A stretch of DNA of 64,000 nt from Paramacrobiotus metropolitanus. Lineage: Eukaryota > Tardigrada > Eutardigrada > Parachela > Macrobiotidae. Position numbers and translations under genes: made by a program. Shown piece after piece: positions 18,730 through 58,059 of the stretch. The stretch lies in NCBI RefSeq assembly GCF_019649055.1, contig NW_026570345.1:186001-250000 (forward strand). The letters run 5' to 3'. Under the pieces are notes generated by a model, which did not search any database, had not been told where the DNA came from, and saw nothing but the letters and a program-made list of their open reading frames with translations. Numbering within the stretch: position 1 is the stretch's first letter; the number at the start of each line of letters is the position of its first letter.

Positions 18730-21362
18730 CTAATAGGCGTACATAGCGTGGCTTCCGCATGGACATGGCTCATTGGCAATCTGCTGCCAGTACTGGTACA
18801 CGGCTTCCAGGTCACTGGTGCCAGGCGACCATTGTGCGTCCAGTCCTACTTCGTTGTACCCATAGTGGTTGTCTTGTAAAAATTGCGGACCAATCATACT
18901 TCTACCGGTAGAAAGTAAGGACCATGGAAAAGTTTCACAACCTGACTGATAGATAATAATAAACAAAGAAATTACCCGCCATTGTGTGTAACTTGATGAA
19001 GCATGTCCCGATAGCTGACGGTCAGACGGGGATCGTAAGTTTGGTTAGGTAACAGCAGCCACGGACCAAAAATGTAAGGCAGCTCCATCGCATGAAAGGC
19101 ATCTGAAAATGAAAAATGAAATGAAACCAACGTTGTCAGTTTAGTAGTGGATAGTAAATTTCTTATTACATACTACATACGCCTTAGTGCCTTACGTACT
19201 ACTGTACGTACTACTGTACACACTGTTTACTACATACTACTGTAGTATGTAGTAAACAGTGTGTACAGTAGTATGTACCACATAATAAAATACCACATAC
19301 GCAGGCCATTATAATGCGAATCGTATATCGTCCTAATCAGTTGTACTGAAGGTAATGATGGCATTGGCTTGATGTGATTGGCATATATTGACGCTTCCTT
19401 GAAAGCTGGAAATGCTTGTACGGATTCTGTACCCAGCTACAACAAAGCCGTTGCACGAAATTCTGTCATAATTCAAACAATTGTCAAAGACGGCGCAGCG
19501 TACATGGTATAATTTGAGCAATGTGTCACCGCGGCTTTCTGTGGCCGACAAATTGTAGTGCTGCATAACGCGGTCAGCTAATCCATAGTCCGGAACCGCA
19601 CACTGAGGATTCCCGTCTCTTGGCAGAAGATTTTTAGCGACAATGTTACGGACGACATCCATGGTTAGTGGTTTGGTGGGGTCAAGGAGATCCGGAATTG
19701 CCACTATTGGAAGCGTTTGGCACTTTTGTCGTTAATTCAACTATCAGTTAATAATGTTTCATGAATGGAGTAAACCACAACCCACATGTGAGAGTTAGTG
19801 CAGCATCTTCGCGGAGATAGCTCGTGACGATATTTGGACCGGTGTATCCGCTGTCTAGGGTCTGCTGCAGCGCACGCACCGGTATGTCTTTAAGATGGTC
19901 GTGGTCAACCACGAAGCCATCAGCCGCAGCCAGCTAAAAACCGCAAGCGCAAGGTAAACGTACTGAACAGAACAAATAATTATATGAAGTGAAGAATCGC
20001 TATCCTTACTGGGCTGGCTGGTACCACAAGTGCCGCCTTTTGGAGCTGCTCTTAGGGCAGCGCTTTCAAACAGTTGGCCAAGGCAGCCGTTGTATTATCA
20101 GGACATCCCGCAGCCACAGCAACCTTTCTCGCCCCAGATAACGGATCCCGGACGTAGTCGAGATCCACTAAAACGCTGCCGCTAAACATAACGGCTGACG
20201 CCACAATTTCTGTACAAAAGCCACTCAGTTATTATACAAATAAAATAAGTATCTGCAGTCCCGTTTTGGTTCAGTAAAATTATGAAAAAATTTAGGCGGC
20301 ATAAAGTGACTAGATTGGAACAGCCGTACCGCGAACAGCAGGATCTAAGATCACGGCAGACACCAAAGCCGCTCCACCACTCTGACCAAACAGCGTTATA
20401 CCGAATGGCTTTCCTCTGAATGCTTCAATGTATTTGTGAACAAACTTGATCGCTGTTTTACAGTCTCCAATTCCAAAATTTCCTTTTATGGAATCGTCTC
20501 CCGTACTCAAAAAGCCTATCAGTAGCATAATATTTACGATACTGCATTACAGACATCGACTGTACCCACGTAGGCGTTCCGCAAACTTACCGAATGCTGT
20601 TAGCCGGTAATTTATGGTGACAACAATTGCTCCCACACTGTCGGCTAGTGAGCTGGAATTGTAGCTGTCTTTAGTGCCAGCTTACAGAACAAGGAAAGGT
20701 TACACAAGCAAGCTTAATATACAGAATTAAGTCGTTACCTTGAAATCCTCCGCCATGAATCCATAACATTGTTACCCAGTCATCTGTGTTATTGGACAGA
20801 CGTGGAGGGACATATATGTCTAGATACAAGCAATCCTCGTGGAATACTTTATCGGTAACAGGTGGCAAACCAGGTAGAAATCCTTGTGGACAAACATTCC
20901 CTTGTTTGGGGCTTGACGTGTTCTTCAAATACAGGAATTCCGTATTCTCCATTGAGGCCTACAGATTTGATACAAAATGCGTTGTAAATCAACGGTTGAA
21001 AATAAGCTAACAGATCAGTGCTTCTAAGTTATCGGTTATGCATAGTATGTGATCGATAAGAAAGGGATTTAATAACAAGCACATTTAACTCGATCTCTCC
21101 CGTAAGTTAATTACCTCAAAACCTGTAAACCCTTATTATCCGTAAATTTTACCTCAAAACGTTTGCTGACTCCATAACGAATCCCGTAATACGCGTAGCC
21201 GTAATTGCCCGGATATTTTTCTGAAGCGAATGGTTCACCAATCAGCTGTACATCGTCGCGCAGGTTGACCACACCAGTGTCTCCTGAGGTTGCATCTTTA
21301 GCAAGTAATATTGTTGAAATAGCAGCGGCCACCCAAAACAAAGGATGATGATTTGACGGCAT
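18730..21362 (-). pseudogene. Second type-B carboxylesterase, one in-frame stop
   Basis: A paralogue of the esterase at 14,356-17,143 with the same ten-exon layout: 21362-21153, 20958-20739, 20680-20591, 20515-20330, 20209-20010, 19933-19786, 19703-19504, 19436-19301, 19102-18976, 18901-18730. Seven of the ten exons have exactly the same length as in the sister gene, and all splice sites are GT-AG. It would encode 562 residues, with HGGG, a GQSGG nucleophile elbow and FHAMELPYIFG. One codon in exon 5 (20,054-20,052) is TAA where the sister has tyrosine (LPYEE), at about codon 288. That would truncate the protein after the nucleophile and before the histidine. Because everything else is intact, this is either a very recent pseudogene, a segregating null allele or a base error. 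An upstream in-frame Met exists, but the start at 21,362 aligns with the sister gene's signal peptide. Confidence 0.8.
19209..19273. repeat. Perfect 32-bp-arm palindrome in esterase intron
   Basis: The left arm (19,209-19,240) and right arm (19,242-19,273) are exact reverse complements around a single T. It lies in the intron between exons 8 and 9 of the second esterase (19,103-19,300). The arms contain tactactgta and tttactacat. The matching intron of the sister gene (14,727-14,820) has no such structure. Confidence 0.9.
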
Positions 21363-24080: not shown

Positions 24081-27000
24081 ATGGAACGCTGCGTGGGGCT
24101 ATTGTTGCTGGGGTGGATGGTGGGCGCCGGGATGGCGGCCGTGCTCAGCTTCCCGCCGCAGAACGCCGACCAGGTCAATGATGTCAAGTTGGCGATGAAC
24201 CGTGATACGCGCTATGATAAGTGGATGGATCCCGCGCATGTGCTCTATCGTTTCGACGAGAAGGCCTACTGTAAGTGCGAGGGAGACAAGAGTTTCCCGC
24301 GTTTTCTCTGTGTGAACGGCGGTAACAAAAAATCAGTTTGATTTCCAGTGTTGTTAGAAAACTACTCGTAGAAGCTTGATTTAAACCCGATGCATAAAAA
24401 TACCTTTAACAGAGATCACGCTCTGCATAAAATCATGGAGTAGAATAAAATAAATGCAAATAACCTTTTTTAAAATAAGCTTGGTCTAAGGAGTATATAA
24501 CCTTTCCAGTAAGGCTTATAATTTATTTATTTTTTTTTTGTTAACTTTGTATTTAAAACTGCCGGAAACCGTAATGAAATTTAAGCAACTGCGCAAATTG
24601 AAAAATACGATTTTTCGGAACTTTGATTGTAAATACTGTAGCAAGAGCTTTCTTTACATGTGTTCAGTAACATGAAATTAAATTTTTATAAATAATTTCG
24701 ATTAATGTCATATTTCTTCAACTTGTAGGCAATGGTGGTTACCAATACGATCAAGGTGTCGGATTAATATTTCATTTATTGAATGATGGCTTGTCTGTCA
24801 ACTAACAAGGTCCCGGCTGTGTAATGTTTATTCCGCCGTATTGTTTTACATGTTTACTTAGCGCGCTGATGTGATTAGCACACAACATGAAAACCTTGTA
24901 CACGGATATACAATTCCCTGTAACATATCGGAGTTATTATATTTATTTAATATTGCAGTAGCTGGCTACAGGACCGAAGAACAACGAACAGATTACTATA
25001 TAGTACTAGTATAGACATTTCCAGTATCTGGCAATCAATTACAATTTCACATTACGACGGAACCGATATAAAACAGTCTTTTAACAAAATTTGCAATTAT
25101 ATATCCGTTTCTTATGTACAGCGATTGATAACCTTTATAAATATTATCACGCAACGAAAATAAAGCAAACGGTAAATTCTGGTGCTGAAACTGCCAAATT
25201 TTTCAGCACACATCAACTTTTGTCATAATGTACCATGAACTAAACATTAAAAGCACATTTTGTTTTCTGCAGCATCGGAAGAGAAGTCGTTAATTCTGAA
25301 AGCCATGGAGCGAATAAGCAACGACATGAGCCAGTGTATCGCTTTCAAGGAGTACAACGCGGACAGCGACGCCGGTCTGGACAACATCTACATCTCCAAG
25401 ACCTTGAACGACGGGTAAACACACGAACACTGACTCACGCCAATGTAACCAATAATAACGATATTTTCATAGCCATGAGATTCTTGTGTCCCGTTTAATG
25501 GGCGTCCATTCAGCCATTCAGAGCGGGCATAGGTGTAACAGCATTCCAATAAAACACAGACAGTAGCAGCGCTTCCGTACATTGCCGCGTCATAAACGCC
25601 GCTATCAATTTTTAAAACTGTTGATCAGTATGCTAAATATGCCGGTATGATGGAATAAAAACACGCTGCCGGCATTTGCCGATATATTGCAGATCAGTGC
25701 CGCCGACATGCTTCAGCTTCTACGGGCGCGTGCTCCGCGCCGCTGGTCAAGGCCAGAAGATGGCCATTCATAATGGGCCCAACGGCTGCATGGAGGCGCA
25801 GCGTGACGTTATGAAGATCCTCGTCAATGTTCTCGGTCTGCGCAACGAATACAATCGGCCCGATCGCGATCTCCATATTAAAGTCTTTCCTGAGAATCTG
25901 CAACCCGGTAAGAAAAACCAAGAATTTCAGTAAAAGTCGAACATTATATTTTTCGCATAATCAAAGTTGACCTCACTATTCGGATGCTTTATAGCAGACC
26001 AATAGTCATTACTCCGCTAAATTTAAACGACTGCATTATATACAGCCCTGCTCAGCCAAGTTGGGGCAGTTTTGTTAAATAATTATAAAATAATTGTATA
26101 CATTGTTTCGTTTTTGAATTTGCAGTTATCTAGTGTAACTTTTTACGGCGAATCTAGGAGTTTTAAAACCGGTACCCCTTGGTGTGCCAGTAGGGAGCCG
26201 AGCACTGGTTAAGGGGATGGTGTGGTGGTCATTTTTAGGATGCTTATAACGGCCCCTCTGAAGAATACACCGACAGATATTTTTACGTGAGCTTTTCTGG
26301 AAAGTCCTAAGCGAACCGAAGCCTGTCCGTTATGGGTTCGCAAAAAAATCTAGCGCGATCAGTGCTCGGGCTGACCGTGAAACAATGTGCACTTCCATAG
26401 GATTGTATGCTAAGACCTACCTGCCGAAGAATGCGGTTGCCTAGCGCACAGACCAAAGTAACTTCAATTTGATATTTGCCATGAATAAAGCATGGACCAC
26501 CTGAAACGATTTTGAGGTTTGAACAGACATAAACTGTCCAGGCGGAGAAATGCAGTGGCCGGATGAACAGAATAAAAAATCAGCAAAGCGGCTGCAAAAA
26601 ATACGTATGCTTTCTCTTACAGTGTCTCGAAATGGAGTGTTTCAGGCATATTGTACAAGTGAAAGACTTTTTATTGACGCTCAAGGCTTCGCAAATACGA
26701 TTTCGTCGAAAATAATTACCCGTCGCATCCCGTGGCTGCACCGGAAGCGTGCGAGGAGGTCACCCCCATTCAAAGGTGCTTGCAGTCACTCTGCAAAGGT
26801 CACCCAGGCTTAGCCGAAATCGGCTGATGTATGGTATCGTTCGCAAGAGCATTGAACGACCAACACCTCAGAGGTAGTGCTTTTGAACAATGACGTCATC
26901 AGAATTTTTAAGCAAATTTCAAACAGGACTACTGCTACCACGCTGAGTGGGTCAAGCCGCTTTTTCCTCTGGTCTACCCTAATTTTGACCTCACGGTTAT

Positions 27001-30000
27001 TCGGAAAGCGGTCTCAGCGTAGAATCTCCAAGTGATAAAGATGTCGGACACACACGGCAACTAAGAAAAAATTAAATGAGGAAGTATTCTGTGACGGCTG
27101 ACCTGTGCTAATTTTTTGAAAAAACTGCCCCAACTTGGCTGAGCAGGGCTGTAATGCAAATAAATTAAAAACAAATTGAATTTTAATTCCAAAAGAAAAC
27201 TACTTGTTGCGTGTTTTCAAAAAAGCATCGGCAGGGTTTGTAATCCTAATGGAGACGATTCAGTTTTATGTTGATTCTTGTACAAATGCAAATTAAATGA
27301 AGATTTGGTGGCCCCTGCCACAATGGTATCGTACTACGTTTCGTTTACGATTTTTTGTTGTGTTAAAATAATTTTGTAATAACTTACTAACTTACCGTAA
27401 TTATCGAATTTGCACCCCTGGGGTGCAAAAGTTCAAACGTCCTGGATGAGGGGGCTTATTTCGGGGAGGGGGCGTTATTTCGGGGGGTGGTATTATTTTT
27501 CAAACAGTATTTTTGGGAGGGGCCGTTATTTTTCAAACAACTCTGCATCCTGTTTTATTGAAACTCGACGCAGTAGATACCAGTGTTTGCAGTTTCAGAA
27601 CCTTGCGAGCAGCATTCTGAAACATAGCACCAAATTATTTTTGTGACCATTTACTGTTTATTTATTAAATCACAACTATTATTATGAAGCAATTGGCGGT
27701 TTATTTATCATTTTGTGGCGCTTGACATTTAATAACGCCCCCCTGGGGGGTAAAATCGGGGGGAGGCGCTATTTTCCAAACGGGCTATGGGAGGGGGGCT
27801 TATTACGGAGGGGGGCCTTATTATGGGGGGAGGTTCAAATTCGATAATTACGGTATTTTTGAAACTTAGTAAGTTATGTGTTAGGGTATACAGACTCTTA
27901 CAGAGTCAGTAAAGCGCACTATAATTATAAGGCACTTCAATACTTGATGCCGCTAATGCCGGCATAATGCCTAAATGCATAATGCCGGCACCTGGACGTA
28001 CGTTGCCTTACTTTTCGCCAAACTTACGCAAGCATAAATCAGTTACAAGTCATGTTCTGTAGTAATCAACGTCAGATTTACCTGGACAAAACAATAATGT
28101 TTTACTAATTGTGAGCCTCATTGGATGGCTTATCAAAAACCAAGTATGTTTTGCATTTATGAGCCCCGTAAGATGTAGAGTATCGACAAATAACCATTGA
28201 GCCGGCGATTTTGAACGAATGATCTGCCGCCCAGTACAGTGAAAAAATGAGGCAATGAAAGCAGGTTACGATAATACTGGTAAATTATTTGAAGAAAAGC
28301 ATAAAGACATAAACATTTACGCTAATCACCACGGGGGCGGTCTATAATCACCGCTCAATAAACTGTCTTAACCATGGAACGGCGATTAATGAGCACGTGG
28401 GAAGCGGAGATTAGCGTTTCTGATCAAGCCAATCGTAAATATTTGACTACTTTTGTATTTCTTATTATTAAAATTTGTTATTTCTTTCGCAGAACTGCGT
28501 AATTCAAACCTCCTAACGGCCTACAATGCCTCGCAAGTGGACACGGTGGACCGACCGTTTGATTATCATTCAGTGACCATTCCAAATTTCAATAAATACG
28601 GCATCGTTAACAGCACAGTTTTTGAGCTGCCTGCGAATACGACCTTTCCCCAATTGGACCGGCTCAGTCTGGATGACTGTATGGGATTGGCCTGGATGTA
28701 CGGATGTGATGCCAAGAAATGCGTTGATCGTAAGGGCCAACTTACTGTAGCTTTAATCACCGTCAGAAATACAATTCATTTCTCTGTTATCTCTTTAAAT
28801 ACGGCAATTTTAGAAGTTGATGTTTACTACCGGTGCTCGTGCAGGTTTTTTAAAAAAACTGTTACAAAAACGATCCCTGCTACAAGAAAAATTTAAAGAT
28901 AATTATGATGTTCTTAATAATATTATTGACAATCCCGTAAACGCTGATTTACAACGTATATTTGTATATTTGTTATTTATGTGTTTTACAACGTATATTC
29001 GTGAACACGTATATTTGTTGGTGCAGACAGCTAAGACAGGTTATTAGCTTTACGGTTAGGAATAATTCTTCAGACTTTTAAATACTTGCGGTAATTAAGG
29101 CAATAGAAGTACAATAATTGCTTATACACCGTAGAGTAAGTATACACATCTTCATAGTCTTGTAACGTGTTTTTTTGCAGCATACAACGCGCCGCCTCCA
29201 TCACTGAAGACTATAGAAGTAAATATCATTCCCACCGACAACAAAATCCTCATTGAACTGCAGCCAAACGCCACCGAAGTCCCGGCCACTTCCGCCGCCA
29301 CCGAAATCATTACCACGGTCATTGCCACCGAAGCCACAACACACGCGGCCGAGACCACCGTAGCGATACTTAACGAAACAACAGCCTTGGCAACGGAAGC
29401 CACCACTACCATTGCAGCCATTACTGAAAACATCACCGCCTCCGTGGCACTGGTAACAACAGAAGCGGCAACCGTACAATCGGTCAACGAAACCAGCGCG
29501 ACGCTTTTGTTAACCCTCGCTACGGTGGCGCCCCTGAACGTGACCTTAGCCGATGTCATCATCCCGCGCAAGGGTGGACTGGAAGAACTGAATGTCACCG
29601 AGGGGCCGATGGTCATCCAGACGGTAGCAACCGCGGCACCAAACGAAGCAACTACCCAGCATGTCGAAGAGACGACGAGCTCTATCCAACTGAAATTGGT
29701 GTTTGTTGTCAACCAGACGGATAATGCCACCCTCAGCAATGTGTCACAAGTCGCCGCTGTTGAAAATATCACAACCGTTGCGCCCACGGTGGCCGCCCAA
29801 ACGACAGCGAGCGAAGCGACGACCGTCATTGCGACAACCGTCACGGAGATCGTCACAACCACTCACTCCGTGGAAAACTCAACGCTAGCCGCTATCGTCA
29901 GTATCGACGGGATCATTGTTGGCCAACCAGTAGTGCAGGATAGCATGCAGCCCAAGGATGGTCTTAATGCGACGACATCCGCGCCCGCTGTGCTGGATCA

Positions 30001-30115
30001 CAGCGTGAGCGAAGCAAGCATGCTCAACGCCACAACGGCGGTCAACATCACAATGGCGGATAACAAGAGCATGACGGATATGGATATGATGTTGATAGGT
30101 GAACGCAGTCTCTAA
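24081..30115 (+). CDS. Inactive astacin-like protein with mucin-like tail, 572 aa
   Basis: A secreted astacin-fold protein predicted to lack protease activity. Exons: 24081-24270, 25273-25414, 25693-25907, 28493-28729, 29181-30115. All are GT-AG with consistent phase, 573 codons including stop. Residues 1-20 are a signal peptide and about 50-252 follow the astacin domain (ILKAMERISNDMSQCIAF; then a C-terminal MYGC). The zinc motif HExxHxxGxxHExxRxDRD is replaced by KILVNVLGLRNEYNRPDRD at residues 152-170. All three histidines and the catalytic glutamate are gone, yet G159, E163, R166 and DRD remain. The Met-turn SVMHY has become SVTIP (209-213), losing the Met and Tyr too. Residues 262-572 are Thr/Ala/Val-rich with over ten NxT/S sites, so probably an extended glycosylated stalk. 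The open frame is fully intact, which argues for a retained non-catalytic role such as binding. No transmembrane segment is seen. The start at 24,081 is the first ATG before the signal peptide. Confidence 0.88.
24271..25272 (+). other. Intron 1 of astacin-like gene
   Basis: About 1 kb of AT-rich intron with a clear gtaagt donor after the AAGGCCTACT exon end and a ttttctgcag acceptor. I see nothing else in it. Confidence 0.7.
26043..27151. mobile_element. TA-flanked inverted-repeat element, 1.1 kb
   Basis: The terminal inverted repeats are 31 bp and identical (26,043-26,073 and 27,121-27,151), beginning CAGCCCTGCTCAGCC. A TA dinucleotide flanks both sides (26,041-26,042 and 27,152-27,153), as expected for Tc1/mariner-type insertion. 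The interior (for example the 87-codon frame at 26,550-26,813) shows no recognisable transposase, so it is probably non-autonomous or decayed. It sits inside intron 3 of the inactive astacin gene. Confidence 0.85.
27381..27876. mobile_element. G-rich MITE-like inverted-repeat element
   Basis: The 20-bp inverted repeats taccgtaattatcgaatttg (27,393-27,412) and its complement (27,836-27,855) are perfect, and the outer 9-mers aacttacta/tagtaagtt (27,381-27,389 and 27,868-27,876) extend the symmetry. The interior alternates runs of G with cttattt/cgttattt units, reading as one strand near the left end and again near the right end. There is no coding capacity. It sits in the same intron as the element at 26,043-27,151. 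Confidence 0.75.
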
Positions 30116-30249
30116 TGACCATGTTGAGCCGATGGGGTTGAAAACAACCATCATCTGGTATGATGGAAGTTTTCGGATGAAATGTGTATTTTTTACTTTG
30201 TTTCTCTTCGGTTTTATGTTACTCTTATGGATAGCTCACTCCACTAATC

Positions 30250-30255
30250 AATAAA
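30250..30255 (+). terminator. Poly(A) signal of astacin-like gene
   Basis: AATAAA lies about 135 bases past the stop codon of the inactive astacin gene, the usual distance and orientation for its 3' end. Confidence 0.5.
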
Positions 30256-30259
30256 TAAG

Positions 30260-31385
30260 TGCCGGACATGCGAGTGCTCGTCGCTACTAGAGTTTAGCTT
30301 AAAGTAAATGCAAACCATTGCACCCAACCCTGCCAAGTGACTAAGTTCTTAGTTCTTACGCTTACGTTTATCCATCATGTCCCCTTTTACTTTTTAAGGC
30401 AGGGCGCACAACAAACTATAAATTTTAATGTTTTCTACTTGGCGCAACGGTTTTATAACACATGTAAACATTCAACACCAGATGTACCATTGTGTTTCCA
30501 CTGACTTGGCAGAATTTTATGTAGCTAGCCGGTGCATTTACAGATATATTTTGTATTTCGTATATTTCGATTCTGATTAAGAACAAAAGTGTATGTGAGC
30601 AGGGAGCCTATTAAAAAGTTATCAGTTTACATAAGAAATGTTACAGTCTACGACACGCTCCTATCTACGTAATACGTAAATACTTGCGTATTTACCAGGT
30701 TTATATCACCATATACACATAGAGCCAGGTTTCACTGTGCGGGTTCGCCCACGCTTCACTGATGTGAATTCCATTAATTTTCTCCTTTAGGTTATCAAGG
30801 TGATTTTAATAATGAGGATAGGTTACTGCCACAAATTTATTGTGCACCGAATATGAGTAGGTTGCTGGCAAATAACGATGCCCTTTTCGTGTATCCGTAA
30901 AGACCAGTGGATTACGCTACATGAGAAAATTAAAGTGGCGAACGCTAATGGCACTATTAATTCTCACTACAAAACACTAAAGCCATTACACTCTGCAGTA
31001 CCGAAAAAGACTATTACATAAGGGTCATTTGAATGCTATTGTGTTACTCTGCACAATGTAACCGAGATCGGCGAGCTGTCACTCGCCTCGTCGGGAAATA
31101 AAATTCTTTCGCCGCGGATGATCTGTTGCCCAGATACCCGGTGCATATGTACCGTATCTGTGCAGACGCCAACGGCGTCTGCGCTTTCCAGTCCACGTCA
31201 GCACCATCCATATGCCACCTTCACCATCCAGGAATAATACATCTGGGCAAAGCTTTAAGTTGGGTCGTATATATTTTTGGTGGAACCTTCTGTTGATGAT
31301 GAGTGGCGAAGGCTGATGCGAGGCGGATACAGGGATACAGAACAATGCAAAAGGCCAATACGAACTATTCTCTCCACAACGAGAT
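30260..31385. other. Intergenic region between convergent genes
   Basis: The astacin-like gene (+) and the kinase-kelch gene (-) converge here, so it should hold both 3' untranslated regions. No gene or repeat is supported. Confidence 0.45.
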
Positions 31386-31389
31386 AGTA

Positions 31390-34234
31390 TTACTTAGCAA
31401 CTGCTACGCCTCTTATCGCGAATCCACCAACGGTGCGCCGCAGCAGGCGTTCATCCTGCGCGGATAGTGCGACAGTTGACCAGAATCCGTTGTCGGTGGT
31501 GTCGTACATTTCTATTGAATATTCATCCGCATTGCCATTATTTTTGCCGCCGCAGACGTATATCCTTTCGTTAACAACGCAGGCTGAATGGCTATGGCGC
31601 GGTCGCTGCAGGGTCTGAATGTCCTCCCACATGGACGTTTCGATGTTCAAACGAATGCAGGAAGGCATTACAGCCGATTCGAATACCGATGTCACGCAGC
31701 CGGAAAGAATGTAGATGTACCCTCTCACGACAGCCATACCAAACATTTCCCGACGCTGTGGAAGGGGTTGTAAGGATGTCCATTGGTCCGCCATCGGATC
31801 ATAGAGATCTAACTCCACTAACTCCCTATCCCGACTGTTGTGAGCATATAATATCTTTCCGTCCAACTCAGCCACTGCTTCCACGCTAAACCTGCAATTC
31901 AAGCGATGTTTCACTTTATGAAGTCGCAGTACTTTGTATGATGAGAATTCCGTTTGACCATACGTACGAGGAGGATTGGTGTTGAGTTAGGGCAACCATC
32001 GACGGTTGGCGGCTAAATTAACCTCTAGTAGTCTAGGTGTTCAGATAAACTCAAGACTAAAAATTCGCTACCTACTTAACACTAATCCTCCTCGTATAAA
32101 TGTTAACTGCAAAAAACGGAGCTTCGAACTGAAATTAGCTGAATAAATAGCGCGAAACTGCGAATGCCACGGAATAACTTGCTGTTCTCCTCACCCTTTA
32201 ATCGGGCTTGATCTCTCCAAAATAATGCTGCTGCTGTGTATATCTTCTGCCACAAAGAAATGACAGTCGTCATACTGATTACAGCGCATATAGTAAATCG
32301 TGTCGTTAACCACAACCGGACAGAACCAGCGCGAAGACCCTGGCCATGGGACCTCGTTCAGCGAGAAATCGCTCATGGTTCCATCAGATATGTTCCACAA
32401 GCAAAGGTCATGTTCGCTCATGCCCATGCCATCCAACTCGTCTTTAAATATGATTCCACTGTTCGGTAACGTCAACTGGGGGAAAACAAATAAGAGGTTC
32501 TTTGGTAGGGGCGTCTCAAGAACTCGAATTTGGTTTGTCACTGGATCAAATACCACCGCTTTAACGCCATCCCCGATGACACCATTACTGCACTGTATTA
32601 TGACAATGTCAGCATCGGCAGTTTGGATAGGTATGCTCTTTTCTGATTTATTAACGTCTCCAACTGAGAAGGTGTGCAACAGTCCTTCGGCCGATATCCG
32701 TTCTCTGGGGTTATGCTGTAAGCACAGGCGGATGCAAGCGGCTAACTTCCGCGGCACTTCAGCTTGGACAAATGGCACATAGCCATCCAGTATTAATAAG
32801 GTAAAGCGCGAGTTGGGAACGTTTGTTACACTGACCGCTTCTCCGTTCTTTTCCAACCGTTTTTTATTGGTCTTGCTTTCTAGACAGCATTCGGCGATCT
32901 CCAACATAATGCAACCTAAGCTCCAGATATCAGTTTTCCGTCCCGGATTGACTGCTTCAACTTGGCCGAATTTTTTCAGCATTTCGGGTGACATGTAGCG
33001 TACAGTTCCGCGCAACTGCAGTATATCTTTGGAGCAGGTGGTGCTTTCTTGCATTTGGATTAAATCGTCCAGGTCACCAACTAGTAGCGTTTTGCCACCG
33101 GCGGCCAGACCCCTGACCAGGATGTTTCCAGGTTTCAAATCTCCATGGATTATTCCCCGACGATGCAAGAAATCTACTCCCGTTGCTATTTCGACACAGT
33201 ACCTTTCGACATCATCGTATTGCAAAGCTTCGCTTTCTTGGGCTTGCTTCAAAAGTGATGCGAGGTCACCTGAAACAAGCGTCTGGCTCACTGCGAACGC
33301 TACACTAATACATGCAACTTGAATGATCAAACAATTTTTGGGATAAGTTGAGATTCGAGGCCATTGGTGCTAGTTCAGGTGTATCTGAATGGCACCAGGC
33401 GGTTGTGACTGACAGGAAGAATGATCGGCTGAAGTTGATTTTTTTATGAAAATGTGGGCACGATGGCTAAAGCGCCTTCAACCATCGTCATCCCAATTTA
33501 ATTGGCTCCAGTGATGCCCATGAATTCGCCTTGCCAGGTACACTTACAAACGTGCATGAAATTCTGAAAGCTGGTTCTTTTAACAATGAAAATTCAAGGT
33601 CGTGCACTGGACTCCATATACGGTACAAATTATAACTAAATTTAAACAGTTCAAGTATTACTATTTAAGTACTATGTGCGCATACATACAAGTGCGCATA
33701 CAACCAAGTTGAAGCAACACAGGCCTCAGGCTATCATTCGAGCTGAACGCTAAGGTTCTTAGCAGCATCATTGTTTATGTAGTGAAATATGGAACTGCGA
33801 CATCTTGTCGTTGTCGATTATAATTATTACAGAGCAGTGGGCTCACCGCTACAGCGCTCCATCAGTATCTCTATCATTGCTCCGGCAGCAAATTTCGTAA
33901 TACGGATTTGGTGGTACGGTATCAAGTGTTTGTGCACCAACTGAGGAAGCATGCTTAATCTGGCAAGCGTTTTCGTCCAATTTTCTGCGTCCGTATAAAT
34001 TTCGGAGTTTGGGGGTAGATGAATAGCTTTAACAGCCGCAACGGCTTCTCCATTATAATCGCCCTGCTCTGTAATTACCGCTTTGTAAACAATGCCAAAG
34101 GCTCCTTTTCCAATAAAGTCAGCATTAGAGTAAACAAACTGACAGTTACTGCCAAAAGTCATAATTCTTCGATTATCAGATTCGGTAGATCTGTCGGTTG
34201 CCATTTCGACTTTGTAGTCACCTGAGCGAAACAC
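31390..34234 (-). CDS. Protein kinase fused to kelch-like repeats, 654 aa
   Basis: Exons (minus): 34234-33847, 33269-32195, 31891-31390, joined in phase (655 codons). Residues about 38-365 are a protein kinase domain: glycine loop GKGAFG at 42-47, ATP lysine K69 in AVKAI, catalytic loop HGDLKPGN at 171-178, metal-binding DLD at 195-197 in place of DFG, then RYMSPEM and DIWSLGC. The two essential aspartates (173 and 195) and N178 remain, so activity is plausible despite HRD becoming HGD. The C-terminal half has at least three kelch-like repeats (LYDPMADQW, IYILSGC, IYVCGG with NIETSMWEDI), expected to form a beta-propeller for protein binding. There is no signal peptide or membrane segment, so it is presumably cytosolic. 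The start could also be M11. The kinase resembles the MAP3K/STE or TKL side, but I cannot place it. Intron 2 carries a small inverted-repeat element. Confidence 0.85.
31967..32094. mobile_element. 128-bp TA-flanked MITE (CGAGGA termini)
   Basis: The terminal inverted repeats start cgaggaggattggtgttgag and match the right end's complement with three mismatches over about 25 bp. TA flanks both ends (31,965-31,966 and 32,095-32,096). It lies in intron 2 of the kinase-kelch gene. The first bases (CGAGGA) and the TA target match the element at 38,860-39,047, so the two are probably one family. Confidence 0.75.
33270..33846 (-). other. Intron 1 of kinase-kelch gene
   Basis: The donor (AGCG then gtgagc) and acceptor (gtttcag) join MERCSG to GDLASLL in phase 1, restoring an unbroken kinase N-lobe to C-lobe. 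I see nothing further in it. Confidence 0.7.
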
Positions 34235-34239
34235 ATCTG

Positions 34240-36500
34240 ACGTCGCGATGAGGAGACTTAATAAGAAACCAGGAGAAGACCCACAGTAAACGTTTCGTAA
34301 TTTCTGACGCTAGAAACACGGAGACTACAGATTATATTGTTGCTATCTTGTTATAAGATCGACTTCAATACACAGCTGCGACTGCGAGGCACAACGGGTT
34401 CGGAGCCGCATGTGCTGAGCTGAGAACCGGTTAATGTGGCTGCTTGATAAAATTGTTAATTTTGACAAGAATGCCGTGCACTGACTAACTGTAAGATGCT
34501 TAATCATTAGTGTTGTTCTGTGCGAAACATCTGGAAATTACTGTGAACATTATGTAGACTCGTCGACTTTGCAAGCGCAGTATAATAATGCAGCCCTCTT
34601 ATTTACAGCGTTTCGCGTACATAAAAGCAGCTGCTGTATAAGGAGCTAAGAAGTGCTAGTCGGCAAACTTGAAACAAGCGCTGACGCTGCTGTGTATCAC
34701 AGTCAGTTAACTGGACACTTTGTCTTACGGTTAACATTGCGCCAATTTCGTTCAACATTTCCAAAAAATTTCGACATATCATTTTCAGACAATTTTGAGA
34801 CCGTGCAGTCAAAAATGCACAACAGCACAATTCCTTTATGGTTTACATCTAGAATTATCACGATCACGAATTAGAGATAAATCCTACATAATACAGGAAG
34901 CTAATCGAAAAAAACTGTACCATCCCCTGTGGAAAAAGTGCGAGATCAGTGCGGGATTACACTAACCACGGTGCAACAACCATTATGTTGACCTTCCAAA
35001 AAAATGTCACAACATTTTCACTCCATCCTTCTTGGCGAGTGGATTTTGGATCAAAGCGTCTGGTCGGTCTGGATCCAGTTGTTCTGGACCAACGTGACTG
35101 CCTTCGTCGCCGCTTTTCCACCTGCAAAGAAACTCAGTACACCGTTCGTGCGTTTGATGAGGGGTGGATGCAATAGACACACTTGGAAGCAAACAAACCA
35201 ATCCTCAAACATAGAAATGCCGACTTCTTTTGGACTTTCGTTATCGAATTTGTGCAGCGAGTGCACATACTGCACAGCCTCGTTTATATGTTCAAGAAAG
35301 ACGTGGAAATCCTGCTGGTATGGAAAATGGAGGTCGATAAAGGTCAAACATCAAACTTTGTTGCCGGTGACCCAATTGGGGAGAACTTACTGCTGCGGAA
35401 ACGGTCTAATTAAAGACTTGGACCATAAAATATTACTAAACACACAGATATCCATCGACTAGCGTGATGTCACGGCAGCGCACATGCACTGTGCATCGGA
35501 GTGGGAAACTTCTGTGGGTTTGTGCGGTATCAAAACATTCAAATTCAAACAATCTGTTCACTTTGGCTCAAAAAATGCATGAAAAAATTTTAAGTTTGAA
35601 AGTGGGCTGATAGAGAGTTTAGTATCAGAGAAGCGAAAATTTCACGATTTATGTAGTTCTCGTCAAGCATAGAGGTCTACGAGCAGCTTGCCATAAACGT
35701 TTACAATACTAATATAAACTTTATATTTTAGTGAATATGTACCACATAGCTGTACAACCGGAATGTTGGAGCAATGCAACCGGTTTCACTTCGTTGTCAC
35801 AAAATAAAACGTGTCCATATATCTGGGTTCGTGATACATATAAGTCGTATTATGGAAATACAGTTAGTTCTCCGTAAAGCAAGAACAACAATTGCGACTT
35901 CGGTTAATGCTCGTACATAACGGACTTTAGGAAAGTGAGCTCACCTTCGATTAAACTGCAGCTGCACAATCCCCTCCAGGCTTCATGAAAAGAGCAACAA
36001 AAAAAGGAAAATGCACATGGCGAAATCTGAGATTTAGGAAACCCAGTTTTATTCATGTGGTTGCTGGATTTTATTCTTAACGTTGCTAGACTCTGCATTT
36101 TCGAGTAACCTGACAACTTCCGATGCCAGAGTTGATTTGCACTTGGCCGATACCCGATATTTAAAGTTAATCTACAAATCAAAACCAAGAGTGCAACAAT
36201 TATGAACCAATTAGTCATGAGGTAATTTTTTTAAAATTGCTGTTACTGTATCTGACATCAGTGACATGGGAATAACAACATGTGTAGCCGTAAACCAAAA
36301 CTTCTAGAAAAAACAGAAACAGTATCGTATAGCTTCAGGTTTTGAAGTTTTGAAGAGATTGGATACAACTCATGCAGTGCGTCATAGTCACGTATAGTCG
36401 TATATCAGCGACCAATAAATAACCGCGTTGGCACAAAACTGTTAAAATAAAATACAAGTTCATTATTAGTAAACAAAATACATGGTCAATATTTGACATT
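34240..36500. other. Intergenic region with unrecognised open frames
   Basis: A 152-codon plus frame (35,004-35,462) overlaps minus frames at 35,007-35,347. The minus strand reads more like protein and could use a gtgtgt donor near 35,191 and a tttgcag acceptor near 35,110. However, the upstream side is closed by an in-frame stop and no family is recognisable. I do not claim a gene. Positions 35,465-36,500 hold nothing I can support. Confidence 0.3.
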
Positions 36501-38859
36501 TATACGATTATCCAGTTAAATCGCCGAGAGAGTACTCTAAGGCTTGGGTAACACTGGGTTCATAGTAGCGGTACACCTTCACCGGTCGGGGAGCGACATT
36601 TTCGACCGTCAGATGTTTGTAGAGATCCAAATCGATGCACGGCTCCTCCTGCAAGATCTATATAAAAAAGCAATTAATTAGCAATTTTACCCAACAGTAT
36701 TGAGTGGCAAAAATTATCCTCACAGTAAACTTAAAATCGAGGTCAAGCGTTTGTACAGAGTACGAACTACAAACTACGGAGTTCAACTGCTGCAGAGTAC
36801 AAACTGCAAACTGGCGTTTTACTTCTGTGAAAACAAAGGTTACTAATTACAGTAAATTACTACAAGTTAAACAAACACAACCAATACTTCGGTTTTTCTC
36901 AACAACCGGGCACATTAACTTTTCATTTTTCACAACCGGCCTCCCTTATTTCTGTCCCTCTCATTCAGCTGTTCACGGGGATATGGCCGAAAAATGGACT
37001 TTGGTGTAAGATCGAATTTGATTTTCATTGCCAGCGCCATTTCAACTAGGATCAACAGCTGACCATGAAAAAACATCACATGTCTACCGATGACAGGTTG
37101 TTTAAAATGGAAGTGTTCTTCAAAATAGTGGAAGTGACCGGTTGTTCAGAGAAGCCAAAGTATTTTGCGGCTTTTATAGGCAGATCACGATGTTACTAGC
37201 AGAGCAAGCCGAACTGACCCCTCTCAAACATATTTCCTTTTTGGCTTCATTATCCACACAATCGGCTTTGTCCACTCCCATCCTTTTATCCTTCTCTAAG
37301 GCTTTTGCATTTTCTTTATCGAACTGATAACCGGTCAGAGCTGTAGCTTCGATTACGACCATGCCGCTCTCTATCCTGCCTGTGTACCTGCAAATCCACG
37401 AAGTTATTTTAATTAAATCTGACTGCAATAATCTGCTAAAAATTATGGTGTCACGACATAAAAAATAGACAGAGAACAAGAAATGAGCAAAATAAAAAAT
37501 TTTCTTATTAAAGGATTTGTGCTCCATTCAAAAAAAAGTTGCTTTATATGTCTCAAAATACTAACTTTGGACAGATGCTCAAGGGCAGCCGGTCGTTGTT
37601 GCTGCCAATACGTCTGAGCCTGACCTTCAGCTCAATGTCAGATTCCCCAGGATTTCCTCGTTTTGCAGCCATTTGCCCAGGCTTGGCTGTGGCTGGCCTT
37701 GAGCGAGGTGGTATCATCCGGAATTTATATTCTAACTGGCCCCGAAGACGACCTTTCCCATCAGCAACTACCGTGATCAGATCATGGCCGGATGGAATAG
37801 CGATATTTATTATACGCAGCGAGTGTTGTGGCACAGTAAAGTTTCCCAGAGATGTCTTGCCGGCAAAAATCCGCCCGGAAATTTGATTACTGCTGCGCAT
37901 GGACGCTGAGACGTCGTTCAGAGCATTGAGTGCCACCACCGTGTCCTAAATCAAAATTGTTTTAATAAGTATACTGGCAATCTGCCTAATTTCTGACTAA
38001 TAATAAATATCCGATGTTCAGTACTTACAGTAATAGTAATTACCAATTCTTATAGTAATACTAATACTTATAGTAATTCTAATAACAACCACAAATTATT
38101 TTAATTTCTTTAACCAGACAGACGATGGTGCAAGCGCGACAATAGCGATTAGCAATCGTCAGTTACTGCCCATCACCGAATCGCCATACTTGAGTCGATA
38201 TAAATCCGCCATTAGCGTTTCGTTGGGCCAGCAGCCAGTTCACAATGCGAAGATCATCAAAATCATGGTCGCTAGTTCCATGCAAATGTATTAAAGCCAA
38301 GAGGGCATACGCTGCCGTTTCCACGTCCCGTGCTGTGAAACGGTTCCCGACCTGGTCGTGCTTGTGGGCCGCCAGCCAGTAGCGCTTATCTTCCTGTGAA
38401 GTGATCGCCAAGTCATTTAACCTCGCCTTGCACAAACCTTGCACCGGATTCTCCAGTTGGCTCAGCGCGTAGCAGGTAATCGCCAAAGAATACGAATCCG
38501 TGACCTTTGATAGAATGCCTTCCAGATAGAATTTGGCCTTGCGCATGGCTGTATGGTTAAGATAATGATTCTGACTGTATGCCAGCGTTACGAAAGCGGT
38601 TAGAGCTGGGCCGGTCCCGGATCCTCCCATTAGCCCCGAATCCAGGATGTACCCATCCTCGCGGAAAGAACCGTCCGGATTCTGTTAGGAATCGAGGAAT
38701 TTGACAGATTTCTCGATCTGGCTGTCGTCGATGGTGATGAACTCTTTGGCCATGGACAAGCCACGGACGACAAAAGCGGTTAACCATGTCGAGCCTGGTT
38801 GTTCTTTCCGACCAAGTGTGCTAAAAAAAATCAGTCAATGTCGTAACTTTTGAAACATA

Positions 38860-39274: not shown

Positions 39275-42200
39275 ACCTCAGTTGCCTTGGACTTCTTGTC
39301 GTAGTGACCTCCTGTAAAGAGCTGGAATGAGAGCCTGCTTGGGATAGTTTTATTGTTGATTGCTGGAACCCTTACCAACTCCGACGATAGTGTCCAACCT
39401 AAACCTGGATTCGAAAACGAACACCATAACATTGGACTCCTGGAAAGTTGGCGGTTAATCGACTGCTTACAATTGGTAAATTATAAGACACGTGCAAATA
39501 CCTCGAAGGAAGACCCTAAGCTGCTTAGGCCGCAAGAGTCCATTAGGCGGGCTTTATAACAGTACCCCTCGCCGTCACCAAATCCAAATTCCGGTTCTGC
39601 TGGTCTGGAAAACCTGGCTGATTGCGGTAACACCTATAGAAAATAGACTCATATTATGCCTTGCCAAATATTTCCAATATCAGATTAGCAGGTATTCCAG
39701 TAAACTGATTTGTCAGAACAAAATTCACATCGGTGTGTGCGATATCGTTGCCGGTAGCCAATCGCAGAAGATTTTTGTCAACGGCCAGTAAACCGACCAA
39801 TGACTTTGCGGCTGCTGTGACCGTTATTTGGGCCTTTTCCCGGCGTCCAGGAAGTACATAATCGCGTTGATTTTGCGGACGGAAGTCCAAGGTAATCTAA
39901 GGGAAATCAACACATGATTCAAATACATTTTTGTACATAGCCGGTATTTTACATTACTGAAAGCAAAGAATACATTTAATGGTCCTACATAATAGTTTCA
40001 GCATATAGTTGGCTTACATTGTGGATGTCTTGGGGACTGGTGACTTTTACTTCCACAGTGTCGGTGACTATATCCATATCCCCGGCAGTGGTACTGGCCG
40101 AAAATGCGATAATTTTCAGGCCTGTTCGTGTATCGGGAGGAATAATGACACTTAATGGGCGGCTTTGTTTGGCTGGCCGGGGAATTATTTCGGTACCGGT
40201 TATAATAAGACCTTTCGGCGAAATAATCTGCAAGAAAAAACCACTGATTTGGAAGCGCGATTTACTCGTATATTCCGCCCACATCGTTCCTCCGAAATTG
40301 CGCATGAATATTATCAGGCTGAATAATTTTTTATCATTTAAAGTTGGCTATAACGATCAGAACATACCGAATAATTAATGCTATCACATCCCGGTTCACA
40401 CTTCATCGCAAACTCGATCGTTTCGCCGGCACGGAACATGCGCGGTTGCAGCAGCAGAATACGCAGCCCGGCATTCCCGCGATTCTGGATATTCTTTGAC
40501 TGGCTGACGCCGTCCACTGTCACGTCAACCGACGGCGAAGCATTTCGGTCGTGCCAATCCATTCGCATCTGTACACTAATCATCCCCTTCTCGACATCCA
40601 CCACTTTGTCGTTAGAGAGTGTGGTCGTGGCGGTGATGTCCGTATTAAAATTCCGCTCAACGGCGGTGATCGCTGCTTGCTGCAAGGCCACTGAATGGCG
40701 ATACGGCGATCCATCATGGTTAATGGCGTGGATTACAGCTGTGGCGGTGCCGGATTTCGGGACGTTGTACTGGACCTGGATGCGAAGTTTGAATGGGTCG
40801 CAGTGGAAAGGAATTTTCACTTCGGCCGACTCTTCGCGGCTGGTCACATTTTCGACCGCGCGGACTTTGAGGGTGATGACACGGGACTGGGGGTTTAATG
40901 CCGAGCACATTATGGCGTGAGACGAACGAGGGAAGTTGCACCGGAAAGGAACAGGTTGGCCTTTGGCCGCCTAATTAATTTGGATTGAAATTTTTATTAC
41001 GTAATTTTATTTGCTATATAAATCTTGTAACAAAGAATTTCCCTTCAGTAATTGTTACGTTTATATTTATCTGAAATGTTTGGTACGCGTTCTTGTTGCT
41101 CAAACAATCATACGAAATGCACTAGCTGTTCACAAACCTGCGAATGAAGCTCTTGATTGCCGGTCGCTGAATTCTCGACGGTAGCCATAACTGAGCCGTA
41201 CGCAGGATTTCCGGCCTGATCTCTACATAAAGGACAACGTAGACCATCACATTACCGTAAAAAATGGTCCTTAGTACGTTAATTCTATTTATTTCCTTGA
41301 CAAAATTGCCGTTACGTTATTGTAATGTGTACGTATCTTTTCTGGATTTGTTTATTAAAAGTTAGTGTCTAATGAAAGATAATAAAGGCATATTCTGTAG
41401 CGCATGCAGTTTCCTAATACCCACCTCAACGCAACGGTGAACTGGAAATCTGGTTGACCTTTTACGATGTAAACTGGTGCGTTGATGTACACCAAATAGC
41501 GCGAAAGATCTACAGAATAAAACGTTTACTTATTAAGAATTTCGCTACAAAGGTACTCGTGCAATATTACTCTATCACGGTCGACTTAAACTAACGTGCA
41601 AGCGTGTGTGTCATACCTCGTATATTGTAAGATACGAGTCTTTTTGCGTTATGCGTGAGCGGCCGATTCTAACTTACAGTAGTCAGCAACAATCAACTTT
41701 TTTCTCTGTATTTGGCTGCCCGCCACCACCTCCACGGTCCAGTTACCAATTTCCGGTTCAAAGCTGAACGGGTTAAAGGTTCCTTCAAAATAGCCAGGAT
41801 CTGCAAGAAATCACCAGAAGCTCGTAAGTGCATTAGCCAGAGACCTAACCACCGCAGGCATTTCGGATTACGTACGCTTAACATCAAGCCTTTGCTGCTG
41901 TTTCCGCTCCTGCATGGCGTCTCCAGCGGGATTCTAAAAATTAATATCAGCAAACATGGTGATAAAAAAAACATAGTGCGTTGCACGGGCATATTTATTG
42001 TTAATATTAGAGAGAGGGACATTCGTACTTTTAGATACACGTCAATCTTCTCCACATTAGAGGACAGGGTTAGCTCATTAGTGTTGAGAAGCAGCACCCG
42101 ATATTTGACGCTTTCCGTAGCTTTGTACATGGGTTTATCCAGTTGGATAAGGACCAGTACGTCGGAAAACAGCTCCAGCGTTTTCAATTTCCTATCGGAG

Positions 42201-42910
42201 ACGCCGTTGTCATAACGCACCGCCACATTGAGAACGATCGGCTGTACGAGCGGAGTGCTACCAATCTGATAAAAACTTTGAAGTTCCGTGAGAACAAATA
42301 ACATTTTACGTAATGAGTGCTCAGCAAAATACACCGAACAGGGAACCTGCCAGGTTATTTGCGGCTGAGAAGCAAGTAGCTGAGTAAAAAATGAGTAAAA
42401 AAAATTAAAAAATTAATTTGCGTTAGGGACGGCAAAATTATCGCTGCGCGCGGTGCTATATAATCCCACTACAATCAATGTACATATCAATTTACTTATC
42501 TATCAAGTGTACATTAAATATAAAATATTGATGGTACGTTGAATATAAATGGTACGTTCACAAGATTAATTGCAAATGGAGCAATGGGATAAAATGTTTA
42601 CCTTAAAGATAATTTTTCCTTGTCGTCCAGCAGCGACCTTTGTTTCGTGGCGATGCACCGCCCGGTCGGCTGCAGATAATGTCGCCGTAACATTGGCGCC
42701 TCGGTATTGGTGTAACGAATGCAGGATGATTTCGTAGTCAGTATTGTAGCGAATGAAACGATGGGAATATGCCACGAGAATTCCATCGTCACTGTGATCC
42801 CAGGTTTCTTCCGGAAAGAACCCACGTGGATAACTCGATGGATGAACGCAAGGGAAAATGGCTAAAACGGTGACCACTGCTAGCTGCATCATTAAGATCT
42901 CGCGATGCAT

Positions 42911-55951: not shown

Positions 55952-58059
55952 CTAAAGACAGGTGCATTTAACCGATTTTGCAGCGTTGTCGTGAGATGTC
56001 CCCGGAAAGTTCCAGTGACCTCCCGCATGCATTGAAGCGGTGGCTGTGAACGACCAGTTGTTTCCCTGCAAGTTGTATGCTGTGAATATCTGCAGTGTAC
56101 ACCCCCGTGTAACCTTGACCGAGCTCGTTGTGCCGCCGGGATTCAGGTTACTGCTCTGTCCGCTGGGAATTTTGTAGAATCCGCCGGCATAGTTGGGGTC
56201 ATTATACAGTACTGCGCACAGTTTTTTTACATGATATTGACTTCCCGGATGTCGGTGGTGCTCATCCCCACCCGTTGATCAATCGGCGTACTCTGCCAGG
56301 GCGACACGGGTCGAATTGTCCAGACGGTTGCGTTAATCGCGAAAGCGTAGTGCATGATTATCGTAGTGCATGATGGACCCATAGTCATACTCTGTTCCGG
56401 ATGCGGTGACTTGGTTGGCTGCATATTTGTTGAAATTATGCTTATCGGCTGCAATCACAAACATGTAGATCAGGTATGGCGATAAACGTTACAGTATTTT
56501 TATTTATTTCAGAATATTGCTACTAGTTGCAAGTACCGTCAAAAACGATAATACCGAGGGCACTTTCGCAGTAGAATGAATATACACTGCTTTAGCACTT
56601 AACAACGGATGATACATCAGCAGATTATGGCTCCCCTACTGTTTTTGCATTTAGGGCTGCGAGATTATGTTATCGCTTGTTATTAGTATCATTAATCACT
56701 ATCACCTTCGTGAATGTTGTTCCAGTGGATCTCCACGTGGGCGTCGCGATCGGTCCGGGATTGTTCATGTACAAAGCCAAGAGCGTGCAGAAGTTCATGG
56801 ATGATAGTGCCAATTTCGGTACGACTGAAACAGCCGCTTGCCAAAGATAGGGTTTGTGGTCCGCCTATCTTTCGAACATAGCTTGAGCATCTGTCAAGCG
56901 ACATAAAATTGAGTGGTTAGCGCTCACTGCAAACCCGTACCAAAATACTGCAAACCCGTACCAAAATGTCCCTACCCTAGCTTTTATACAATTTTACTTT
57001 CCATTTACTGTATATCGGTTGCACTTAATAATCACCTATGCTCATGTCGGATATAAATAAATCTCTGGATAGGCTTGTGCAGATACTTTTCTGAGTCTGT
57101 TGGTAAACGGTAATCAAAGGTTAAGGAAAATGGCCCGGTACATGGTGTCAAAATGGGATACATACACTAAAACTTTCTCCTGCGCGCACTCCGAATCATT
57201 ATTTTGTAATACTTTATGTCATTCGAAAGCTAAATAATTTGTATACATTGTTCTGAAAACCGTTTGCGCGCGCAACATCCGGTTCCTGAGATATGGTGTT
57301 TTAAAATGGGCGAAAAGTTTAAATGCATTGTTGTGTACCAAAAGTCTGGTTATTATCCGATCTTCTTGAAACTTTTGCTGTAAAAGGCACATGGCCATGA
57401 AGTTGAAAGTGAACCAATATCAGATCCATAGCATTTTTTTCCGATTTTAAAATGAATTTCAAAAATTTTAAAATTCATTTTAAAATTATGGGAAAGTGCT
57501 ATCTATGAAGCTGAAATTGGTTCACTTTCGACTTTATAGCCATGTACCGTTTACAGCAAAAGTTTCAAGAAGATCGGATAATAACCAGACTTTTGGTACA
57601 CAACAATGCATTTAAACTTTTCGCCCATTTTAATACACCATATCTCGGCAACCGGATGTTGCGCGCGCAAACGTTTTTCAGAACAATGTATACAAATCAT
57701 TTAGCTTTAGAATGACATAAAGTATTGCAAAATAGTGATTCGGAGAGCGCGCAACCGAAAGTTTTAGCGTAGTGTATCCTATTTTGACGCTATGTACCGG
57801 GCCATTTCCCTTAAGGAGAAGCCGAGAAGGAAAAACGTGCCACCTACCCAGTGCCTTTGATGATGTCAATATAATCCGCCTGAGTTTCCCGCTCATAAAA
57901 ACGACTAAGGTCGGTTTTTGTTGAAATATCAGACATTGCACGCAGAATGTCGTTTTCTTGCGAGTAACTAAAAGCACCCGAAATCTGGTAATAAACTCTG
58001 CCTCCAGGCCAGAGCTGGTTGAACGCAACCGCTTTTCCAGGATTGGCCAGCTTGTTCTC
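55952..58059 (-). pseudogene. Astacin metalloprotease with C-terminal beta/gamma-crystallin-like domain, frame-disrupted
   Basis: Exons (minus): 58059-57848 (catalytic N-half, GGRVYYQISGAFSYSQE), 56890-56706 (zinc motif HELLHALGFVHEQSRTDRD, all ligands intact, plus preceding SGCFSR), then 56448 leftward (EYDYGSIMHYDNHA Met-turn, continuing to WTIRPVSPWQSTPIDQR). Without a break the sequence runs on to 55,952, encoding about 90 residues typical of a beta/gamma-crystallin Greek-key domain: LYNDPNYAGGFYKIPSG, TSSVKVTRGC, AKSVKCTCL, stop. A 16-base tandem duplication (56,346-56,374) shifts the frame right after SIMHYD. The astacin-to-crystallin join (A7 run, 56,222-56,228) also needs one extra base. 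Either it is a recent pseudogene or these are sequence errors. The signal peptide/propeptide exon was not found upstream. The second intron holds a TTAA-flanked foldback. Confidence 0.8.
57121..57814. mobile_element. TTAA-flanked foldback element, ~330-bp arms
   Basis: Left (57,121 to about 57,460) and right (about 57,475 to 57,814) halves are near reverse complements, with a short centre around cattttaaaattatg. The ends read ttaaggaaaatggcccgg and its near-complement, and TTAA stands at both borders (57,121-57,124 and 57,811-57,814), as in piggyBac-type insertion. No coding capacity. It lies in the intron between the two catalytic exons of the minus-strand astacin. Confidence 0.85.

Follow-up and report, generated by a model that had tools for sequence, protein, structure and literature searches.

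Gene organization

The window analyzed in this study, a 64,000-nucleotide stretch of the genome of the eutardigrade Paramacrobiotus metropolitanus (contig NW_026570345.1, positions 186,001 to 250,000 of the forward strand), contains at 24081-30115 on the plus strand a gene for an astacin-type protein whose zinc site has been erased. Splicing of its five exons (Table 1) in silico yields 1719 nucleotides, corresponding to 572 codons and a stop with no internal stop codon, and all four junctions have GT-AG borders with phases that fit. The G+C content is uneven among the codon positions (0.545, 0.422 and 0.651), and the frame of exon 5 was open in none of 2000 base shuffles. Hydropathy places a signal peptide at approximately residues 1-20, and the SFPP...W.DP..(I/V)LY layout of exon 1 recurs in a paralogue (C87:407-409k). 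The element lying in intron 3 has TA at both ends, suggesting a Tc1/mariner-like insertion.

Exons of different genes could have been joined by mistake, as the splicing is in silico and a possible alternative donor was noticed by eye at 30099-30100 (TTGATAG/GTGAAC), at the position of the exon-5 donor of C87:407k. This paralogue has a sixth exon; a counterpart was sought in window positions 30001-34000 with no convincing match, and the last codons of the window gene may be former intron. Such an artefact is nevertheless extremely improbable in view of the compatible junctions, the same exon order with a tail exon rich in N-glycosylation sequons in C87:407k, and an exon-3 donor held in common with zinc-site astacins.

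Table 1. Coordinates of the zinc-less astacin gene and associated features in the window
Feature	Position	Strand	Content
Exon 1	24081..24270	+	Signal peptide, short pro-segment, start of the astacin domain (KWMDPAHVLYRF)
Exon 2	25273..25414	+	Astacin domain, N-terminal portion, with Cys85
Exon 3	25693..25907	+	Cys117/Cys143 and the edge strand (Q132); then the erased zinc helix KILVNVLGLRN and the kept EYNRPDRD
DNA element	26041..27153		Inside intron 3, outside the protein; 33-bp perfect terminal inverted repeats
Exon 4	28493..28729	+	Altered Met-turn DYHSVTIP (SIMHY lost), family-specific Cys245, Cys254, Cys259
Exon 5	29181..30115	+	310-residue Thr/Ala-rich tail, 15 N-glycosylation sequons, stop TAA
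AATAAA	30250..30255	+	Possible poly(A) signal, 135 nt 3' of the stop

Astacin domain with an erased zinc site

The Pfam family Astacin (PF01400) matches residues 48-254 of the protein (E 4.5e-14, 53 bits against a cut-off of 22.5) and is the only family matched at E ≤ 1; homology to serine or cysteine proteases of the scabies mite SMIPP type was not found. A PDB sequence search with the protein returned BMP1, tolloid-like 1, crayfish astacin and hatching enzymes. According to the available part of a 2023 review (PMC9848320), astacins are defined by the zinc motif HEXXHXXGXXH. The helix KILVNVLGLRNEYNRPDRD aligns without a gap with HExxHxxGxxHExxRxDRD, and K152, I153, N156 and N162 occupy the places of the first His, the catalytic Glu, the second His and the third His, respectively. 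The following EXXRXDRD segment, with the family-specific Glu (E163), is retained as EYNRPDRD, together with the scaffold residues Q132, C143, G159, R166, D168, R169, D206, S209, D244, Y252 and C254. The Met-turn SIMHY reads SVTIP, with T211 for the Met and P213 for the zinc Tyr. The sequence-only reading of this DNA had proposed exactly this pattern, i.e., replacement of all three zinc His, the catalytic Glu and the Met-turn Met/Tyr on a kept scaffold; the gap-free alignment of the helix agrees with it, and its five-exon model proved exact to the base, with the absence of stops over 572 codons confirmed by the spliced translation. As no residues remain to hold a catalytic zinc, the protein should not cut as astacins do.

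Four Cys of the protein lie at the places of the two usual astacin Cys pairs. The aspartate-switch pro-segment of active astacins carries an FxGD motif. This motif is absent from residues 1-70 of the window protein, as would be expected because there is no zinc to be masked.

A large zinc-less family in one genome

The astacin domain of the window gene was used as a query of its own genome (an assembly of 169.8 Mb) and gave 77 matches with an E value of at most 0.001, a number that includes the three exons of the query itself. Three further members used as queries added loci and two more added none; since only the best candidates were scored, all such locus counts are lower bounds. After 23 strong PF01400 matches had been set aside, the zinc-less-query matches comprised 62 loci with a readable helix, near-copies such as L009/L024, C87:407k/C87:282k, L032/L042 and L065/L066 being counted; L023, which has only the C-terminal part and is unreadable at the helix, lies outside this number. 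An intron interrupts the helix in L027, L047, L048 and L049, and for these loci the initial helix residues were taken from the tree alignment. HExxH is absent from all 62, i.e., from at least 62 loci in the genome. The second zinc His alone is retained at four (L020, L026, L027 and L028), and none keeps two. All 23 matches set aside (7 + 16) read HEHH at the zinc site, as do 37 of 37 strong PF01400 matches that were read, including a second gene of the window. When the zinc-site exon of that second gene was used as the query, 150 matches were obtained from the 150 scored of 247 candidates, none of them at the zinc-less loci. At least one family member, L005, scores below the Pfam cut-off (21.2 vs 22.5 bits), so annotation may miss some others.

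The replacements are common to the family. When 59 zinc-less rows are aligned with 19 zinc-site rows (fewer where a column is missing), Lys or Arg replaces the first His in 52 of the 59; the catalytic Glu and the third His are kept in none and the second His in three. The Met-turn Met is Thr in 40/40 zinc-less rows having this column, whereas the zinc-site rows have Met (14/16) or Leu (2/16). An additional Cys after LSxxD is present in 45/45 zinc-less and 0/16 zinc-site rows. Arg148 is found in 43 of 59 zinc-less rows, a position occupied by Gly in 15 of 16 zinc-site rows, and Arg161 in 45 of 59. With K152, T211, C245 and its place on the family side of the tree described below, the window protein belongs to this family. 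Arg148, Lys/Arg152 and Asn156 of the old active-site helix should face the cleft, because their i, i+4, i+8 spacing follows the periodicity of a helix.

Conservation of this degree raises the alternative that the protein is still an enzyme, either holding a metal through other residues or performing metal-free chemistry with the new Lys/Arg and Glu163. The basic residues at the old site, Thr211 and Glu163 (58/59) are indeed strongly conserved. Against this, Lys, Asn, Asn and Ile are unusual substitutes for three zinc His and a catalytic Glu according to established chemistry, one zinc His survives at only four of the 62 loci and two at none, and Glu163 is likely structural, as it is kept in all 19 zinc-site rows as well. 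Retained catalysis is thus highly improbable.

The exon structure connects the family to zinc-site astacins. Counted from the first base of the conserved Glu codon, a phase-1 donor lies at 61 nt in the window gene (exon 3), in L020, L028 and L032, and in the zinc-site loci L069, L086, L087, L088 and L090; C87:407k has a donor at this place as well. Apart from C87:407k, eighteen loci were scanned, for some donor forms only; other donor candidates were found in L040 and L046 (at 63, phase 0) and L089 (at 58), and a donor at 61 was not listed for the remaining scanned loci. The intron shared by zinc-less and zinc-site genes indicates that the family descends from intron-bearing astacins.

Phylogeny and partial losses of the zinc site

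Two maximum-likelihood trees were constructed, in both of which many forks are open. Tree 1 contains 78 rows and 142 columns, with the seven site columns removed; L026, L058, L068, L088 and L089 (too short) and L023 were excluded, and the window zinc-site exon was added by hand. All 59 zinc-less rows fall on one side of a single branch (100/99) and the 19 zinc-site astacins on the other. The window gene groups with the two C87 copies (100/99), L020 groups with L028 (85/87), and L031 is placed weakly toward the zinc side (62/25).

A clean two-state picture without intermediates was considered and had to be dropped, because nine of the 20 low-scoring zinc-side exons (L093-L112) show partial losses, the other 11 being HEHH. 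The partial losses read QLLH (two near-copies), HQHH (two), REHD, QEHH, RQHN, LQHH and HAHH, and L105 (HAHH) also has a stop. Tree 2 (92 rows, 140 columns; its bootstrap has not settled) includes seven of these nine exons, the partial losses L101 and L102 and the four HEHH exons L106-L109 being excluded. The zinc-less family remains on one side (100/98). The seven partial-loss exons lie on the zinc side and represent six changes (5-6 in bootstraps; the starred branches alone force two), apparently as several independent events. L093 (REHD) and L096 (RQHN) are deepest on the zinc side (99/18 and 99/82), and the deepest branches on the zinc-less side are L020 and L028 (92/23 and 91/94), both with the second His retained. 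This arrangement suggests that the first His, replaced by a basic residue, and the third His were lost early and the second His last; the order is read from tree 2, with uneven support and a midpoint root, and does not appear in tree 1.

Selection and fold

The ratio of nonsynonymous to synonymous divergence (omega, dN/dS) was evaluated in 21 comparisons, of which 20 are zinc-less (pairs and two exon subsets of window gene/C87:407k) and one is a zinc-site pair. Compared with C87:407k, its nearest intact paralogue and likewise zinc-less, the window gene is 56% identical over 194 codons, with a dN of 0.345, and omega = 1 is rejected (twice the log-likelihood difference, 2 delta lnL, 126). Family pairs with a dS of 0.26-0.47 gave omega values of 0.045, 0.32, 0.20, 0.027, 0.14 and 0.44; for the last, L056/L057, neutrality is not rejected (2 delta lnL 3.5). 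L009 and L024 have diverged too little for their omega of 1.06 to be informative, C87:407k/C87:282k is borderline (3.9), and many family pairs are saturated in dS.

The fold was modelled with AlphaFold2 on the contiguous paralogue C85:202k. The predicted local distance difference test score (pLDDT) and the predicted template modelling score (pTM) were 77.8 and 0.76 with mixed rows and 77.4 and 0.75 when the alignment was restricted to zinc-less rows, and a PDB structure search with either model listed astacins first. The model from the family-only alignment superimposed on crayfish astacin (1ast, VIA-align) with a Z score of 14.2 and a root-mean-square deviation of 3.5 over 168 aligned residues.

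These data bear on the possibility that the window gene is a decaying duplicate whose site was lost recently and which, being unconstrained, has not yet acquired stops. Decay is indeed seen nearby, in a frameshifted family member described below and in the loss of site residues from nine of the 20 low-scoring zinc-side exons. The 572 codons are nonetheless open and the tail is enriched in sequons. A lone decaying duplicate was rejected, given that neutrality is rejected against C87:407k and that the loss is common to 62 readable loci with shared replacement residues; decay is very unlikely to account for the gene. The same observations support the earlier suggestion of a retained pseudoenzyme, and the dN/dS check that had been proposed for the astacin domain gave this outcome among paralogues. 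Close relatives with an intact HExxH beside a decaying copy, which would have spoken for decay, are not what the genome holds, as the HExxH relatives lie beyond the 100/99 branch. The proposed modelling of the fold was answered for the paralogue C85:202k, whose model matches astacins.

Several points weigh against the view that the gene is a constrained pseudoenzyme. The family does include decay, since C87:282k (L014), which is nearly identical to C87:407k and lies inverted relative to it on their common contig, is frameshifted in exon 4. Because dS is saturated between the window gene and C87:407k, their omega value is itself meaningless, and the comparison is informative only in that omega = 1 is rejected. 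The evidence for conservation comes from paralogues within one tardigrade genome, and that for the fold from the model of C85:202k, in which residues 29-48 and 57-64 are of low confidence (below 50).

The tail

Within the C-terminal tail of 310 residues there are 15 N-glycosylation sequons, where the composition would predict 4.5; none of 5000 shuffles reached 15, and 15 of the 19 Asn of the tail lie in sequons. Ser and Thr make up 24.8% (35% in the richest 60-residue stretch) and Pro 4.5%, for which "N-sequon-rich" is a better description than "mucin-like". The stretch 371-389 is moderately hydrophobic (1.86 in a 19-residue Kyte-Doolittle window) and contains a sequon. No C-terminal membrane anchor or hydrophobic C-terminus is visible in the window protein, so a membrane-anchored stalk was rejected. 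The sequence-only reading had described a mucin-like tail and a glycosylated 310-residue stalk; the length stands, the mucin character is weak, and the label "stalk" is not borne out. The tail is new as had been claimed, but it is a part rather than the main part of what is new, as the domain itself has acquired family-wide residues including a Cys. C87:407k is laid out likewise; its tail, read from two exons, has 180 residues and eight sequons against 3.0 expected (15/5000 shuffles).

Such tails could also point to a glycoprotein with a structural role in the matrix of the cuticle, the egg coat, mucus or the tun surface. The work would then be done by the tail, and the dead domain would serve only for anchoring or folding. 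Large sequon-rich tails in both genes and the lack of a C-terminal membrane anchor favor this alternative, as does a candidate tail at C4:736k, a low-complexity Thr/Gly/Pro-rich open reading frame (ORF) 3' of the domain. The tails of the window protein and C87:407k can, however, hardly be aligned with each other (25% over 79 residues, E 0.02), so the domain, 56% identical and constrained, appears to be under the stronger constraint. A matrix role as the principal function is therefore rather unlikely, though it is the best placed of the alternatives. Beside the zinc-less gene at C4:736k, on the opposite strand, L012 51-791 (+) is a Thr-rich ORF with a chitin-binding-like Cys pattern by eye.

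Other genes in the window and the genome

The second astacin of the window (56336-58221, minus strand) is a zinc-site gene of at least three exons (HELLHALGFVHEQSRTDRD, SIMHY) located 26 kb from the zinc-less gene. Elsewhere in the genome, L079 (179-2674) and L083 each encode a zinc-site astacin in a long open frame (832 and 870 residues, respectively), with C-terminal parts resembling leucine-rich repeats (LRR_8 at 18.2 bits in L079, under the cut-off of 27; by eye in L083). The remaining neighbors identified in the window are all on the minus strand. At 38163-38684, 8 kb from the zinc-less astacin, there is an A-macroglobulin thioester-type domain of the protease-trap family (TED_complement, E 1.5e-27), to which ORFs at 40338-42412 look related by eye with no Pfam match. 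At 31390-34309, ORFs of the protein kinase type, in which the motifs HGDLKPGN and GDLDD are atypical, lie beside Kelch repeats, possibly as one kinase-Kelch gene; a long leucine-rich-repeat protein has 463 residues in one frame at 44744-46135 (LRR_8, E 1.9e-46); and a carboxylesterase-type exon at 20310-20546 (COesterase, E 6.3e-19) has GQSGG at the expected nucleophile position, by eye. SAHS genes are a hallmark of eutardigrades. A SAHS query gave 14 genome matches (best E 2.4e-16), 13 of them clustered at C3:446417-467169 (-), which marks the genome as that of a eutardigrade.

Proposed role of the zinc-less astacins

We consider it very probable that this eutardigrade possesses an old and expanded family of non-peptidase astacins. 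The window protein itself is, with good probability, a secreted glycosylated binding protein built on a dead astacin fold, its secretion and N-glycosylation being predicted from the signal peptide and the sequons. The former active-site cleft, lined by the edge strand with the invariant Gln132 and by the helix face with Arg148, Lys/Arg152 and Asn156, would hold a protein, peptide or anionic ligand uncut. The tail would extend and protect the molecule extracellularly, with the gut lumen, cuticle and egg coat as candidate settings. A decoy or binding role can be put forward only tentatively from these features; the first choice would be that the protein acts as a decoy or regulator by competing with the active astacins, be it for substrates, for surfaces or for inhibitors, and the second would be a structural matrix protein. 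In a more far-reaching and, taken as a whole, unlikely scenario, a large family of binding proteins with the astacin fold would have arisen in tardigrades from one old loss event. Its zinc site would have been rebuilt stepwise, the steps being still represented among present paralogues (REHD, RQHN to K..H..S to K..N..N), into a conserved basic pocket for an anionic ligand such as a glycan, a peptide carboxylate or sulfated matrix, and the proteins would have gained a new disulfide and a tail rich in glycans.

Comparison with known systems

With the astacins (M12A; 1ast, BMP1/tolloid, meprins and hatching enzymes) the window protein shares the Pfam match, EXXRXDR, the intron position, the signal peptide and, judging from the paralogue model, probably the fold. 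Unlike them, it has no zinc His, catalytic Glu, Met-turn Met, zinc Tyr or FxGD, and it has an extra Cys and a basic old site. The nearest functional parallel, by analogy, would be SMIPP-S and SMIPP-C of the scabies mite, which are likewise multi-copy proteases with erased sites that have been retained and expanded; the available text of one source gives 32 SMIPP-S, some of which inhibit host complement (PMC5956821). SMIPPs differ in being parasite proteins of serine/cysteine protease folds with an independent origin. Inactive metallopeptidase homologues similarly keep a fold without catalysis for binding or scaffolding, according to the portion available of a 2024 pseudopeptidase review (PMC11266112), which names astacin once, in a metzincin list, and describes no astacin pseudoenzyme there; the word "inactive" does not occur in the accessible part of the 2023 astacin review (PMC9848320). 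The iRhom rhomboid pseudoproteases are also dead protease relatives with added regions, on the unrelated fold of intramembrane serine proteases.

In the open-licence literature, no zinc-less astacin family of such size with conserved residues of its own and no tardigrade astacin work on this point turned up. The accessible portions of four tardigrade papers report the P. metropolitanus genome of 170 Mbp (PMC11191345), NAS-13-type metalloproteases induced by ultraviolet C (PMC9145152), 53 peptidase clusters confined to tardigrades, counted in two other tardigrade species (PMC5531438), and a nas-13 protein among Hypsibius N-glycoproteins (PMC12167791); the family is not described in those portions. 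Relatives of the family may already sit unnamed among the 53 clusters (PMC5531438). Dead proteases as such are a known kind. Since at least 62 zinc-less loci coexist in one genome with HEHH astacins (37/37) and partial losses (9/20), a single genome may allow one to follow and test in what order a metal site is taken apart and which residues take its place.

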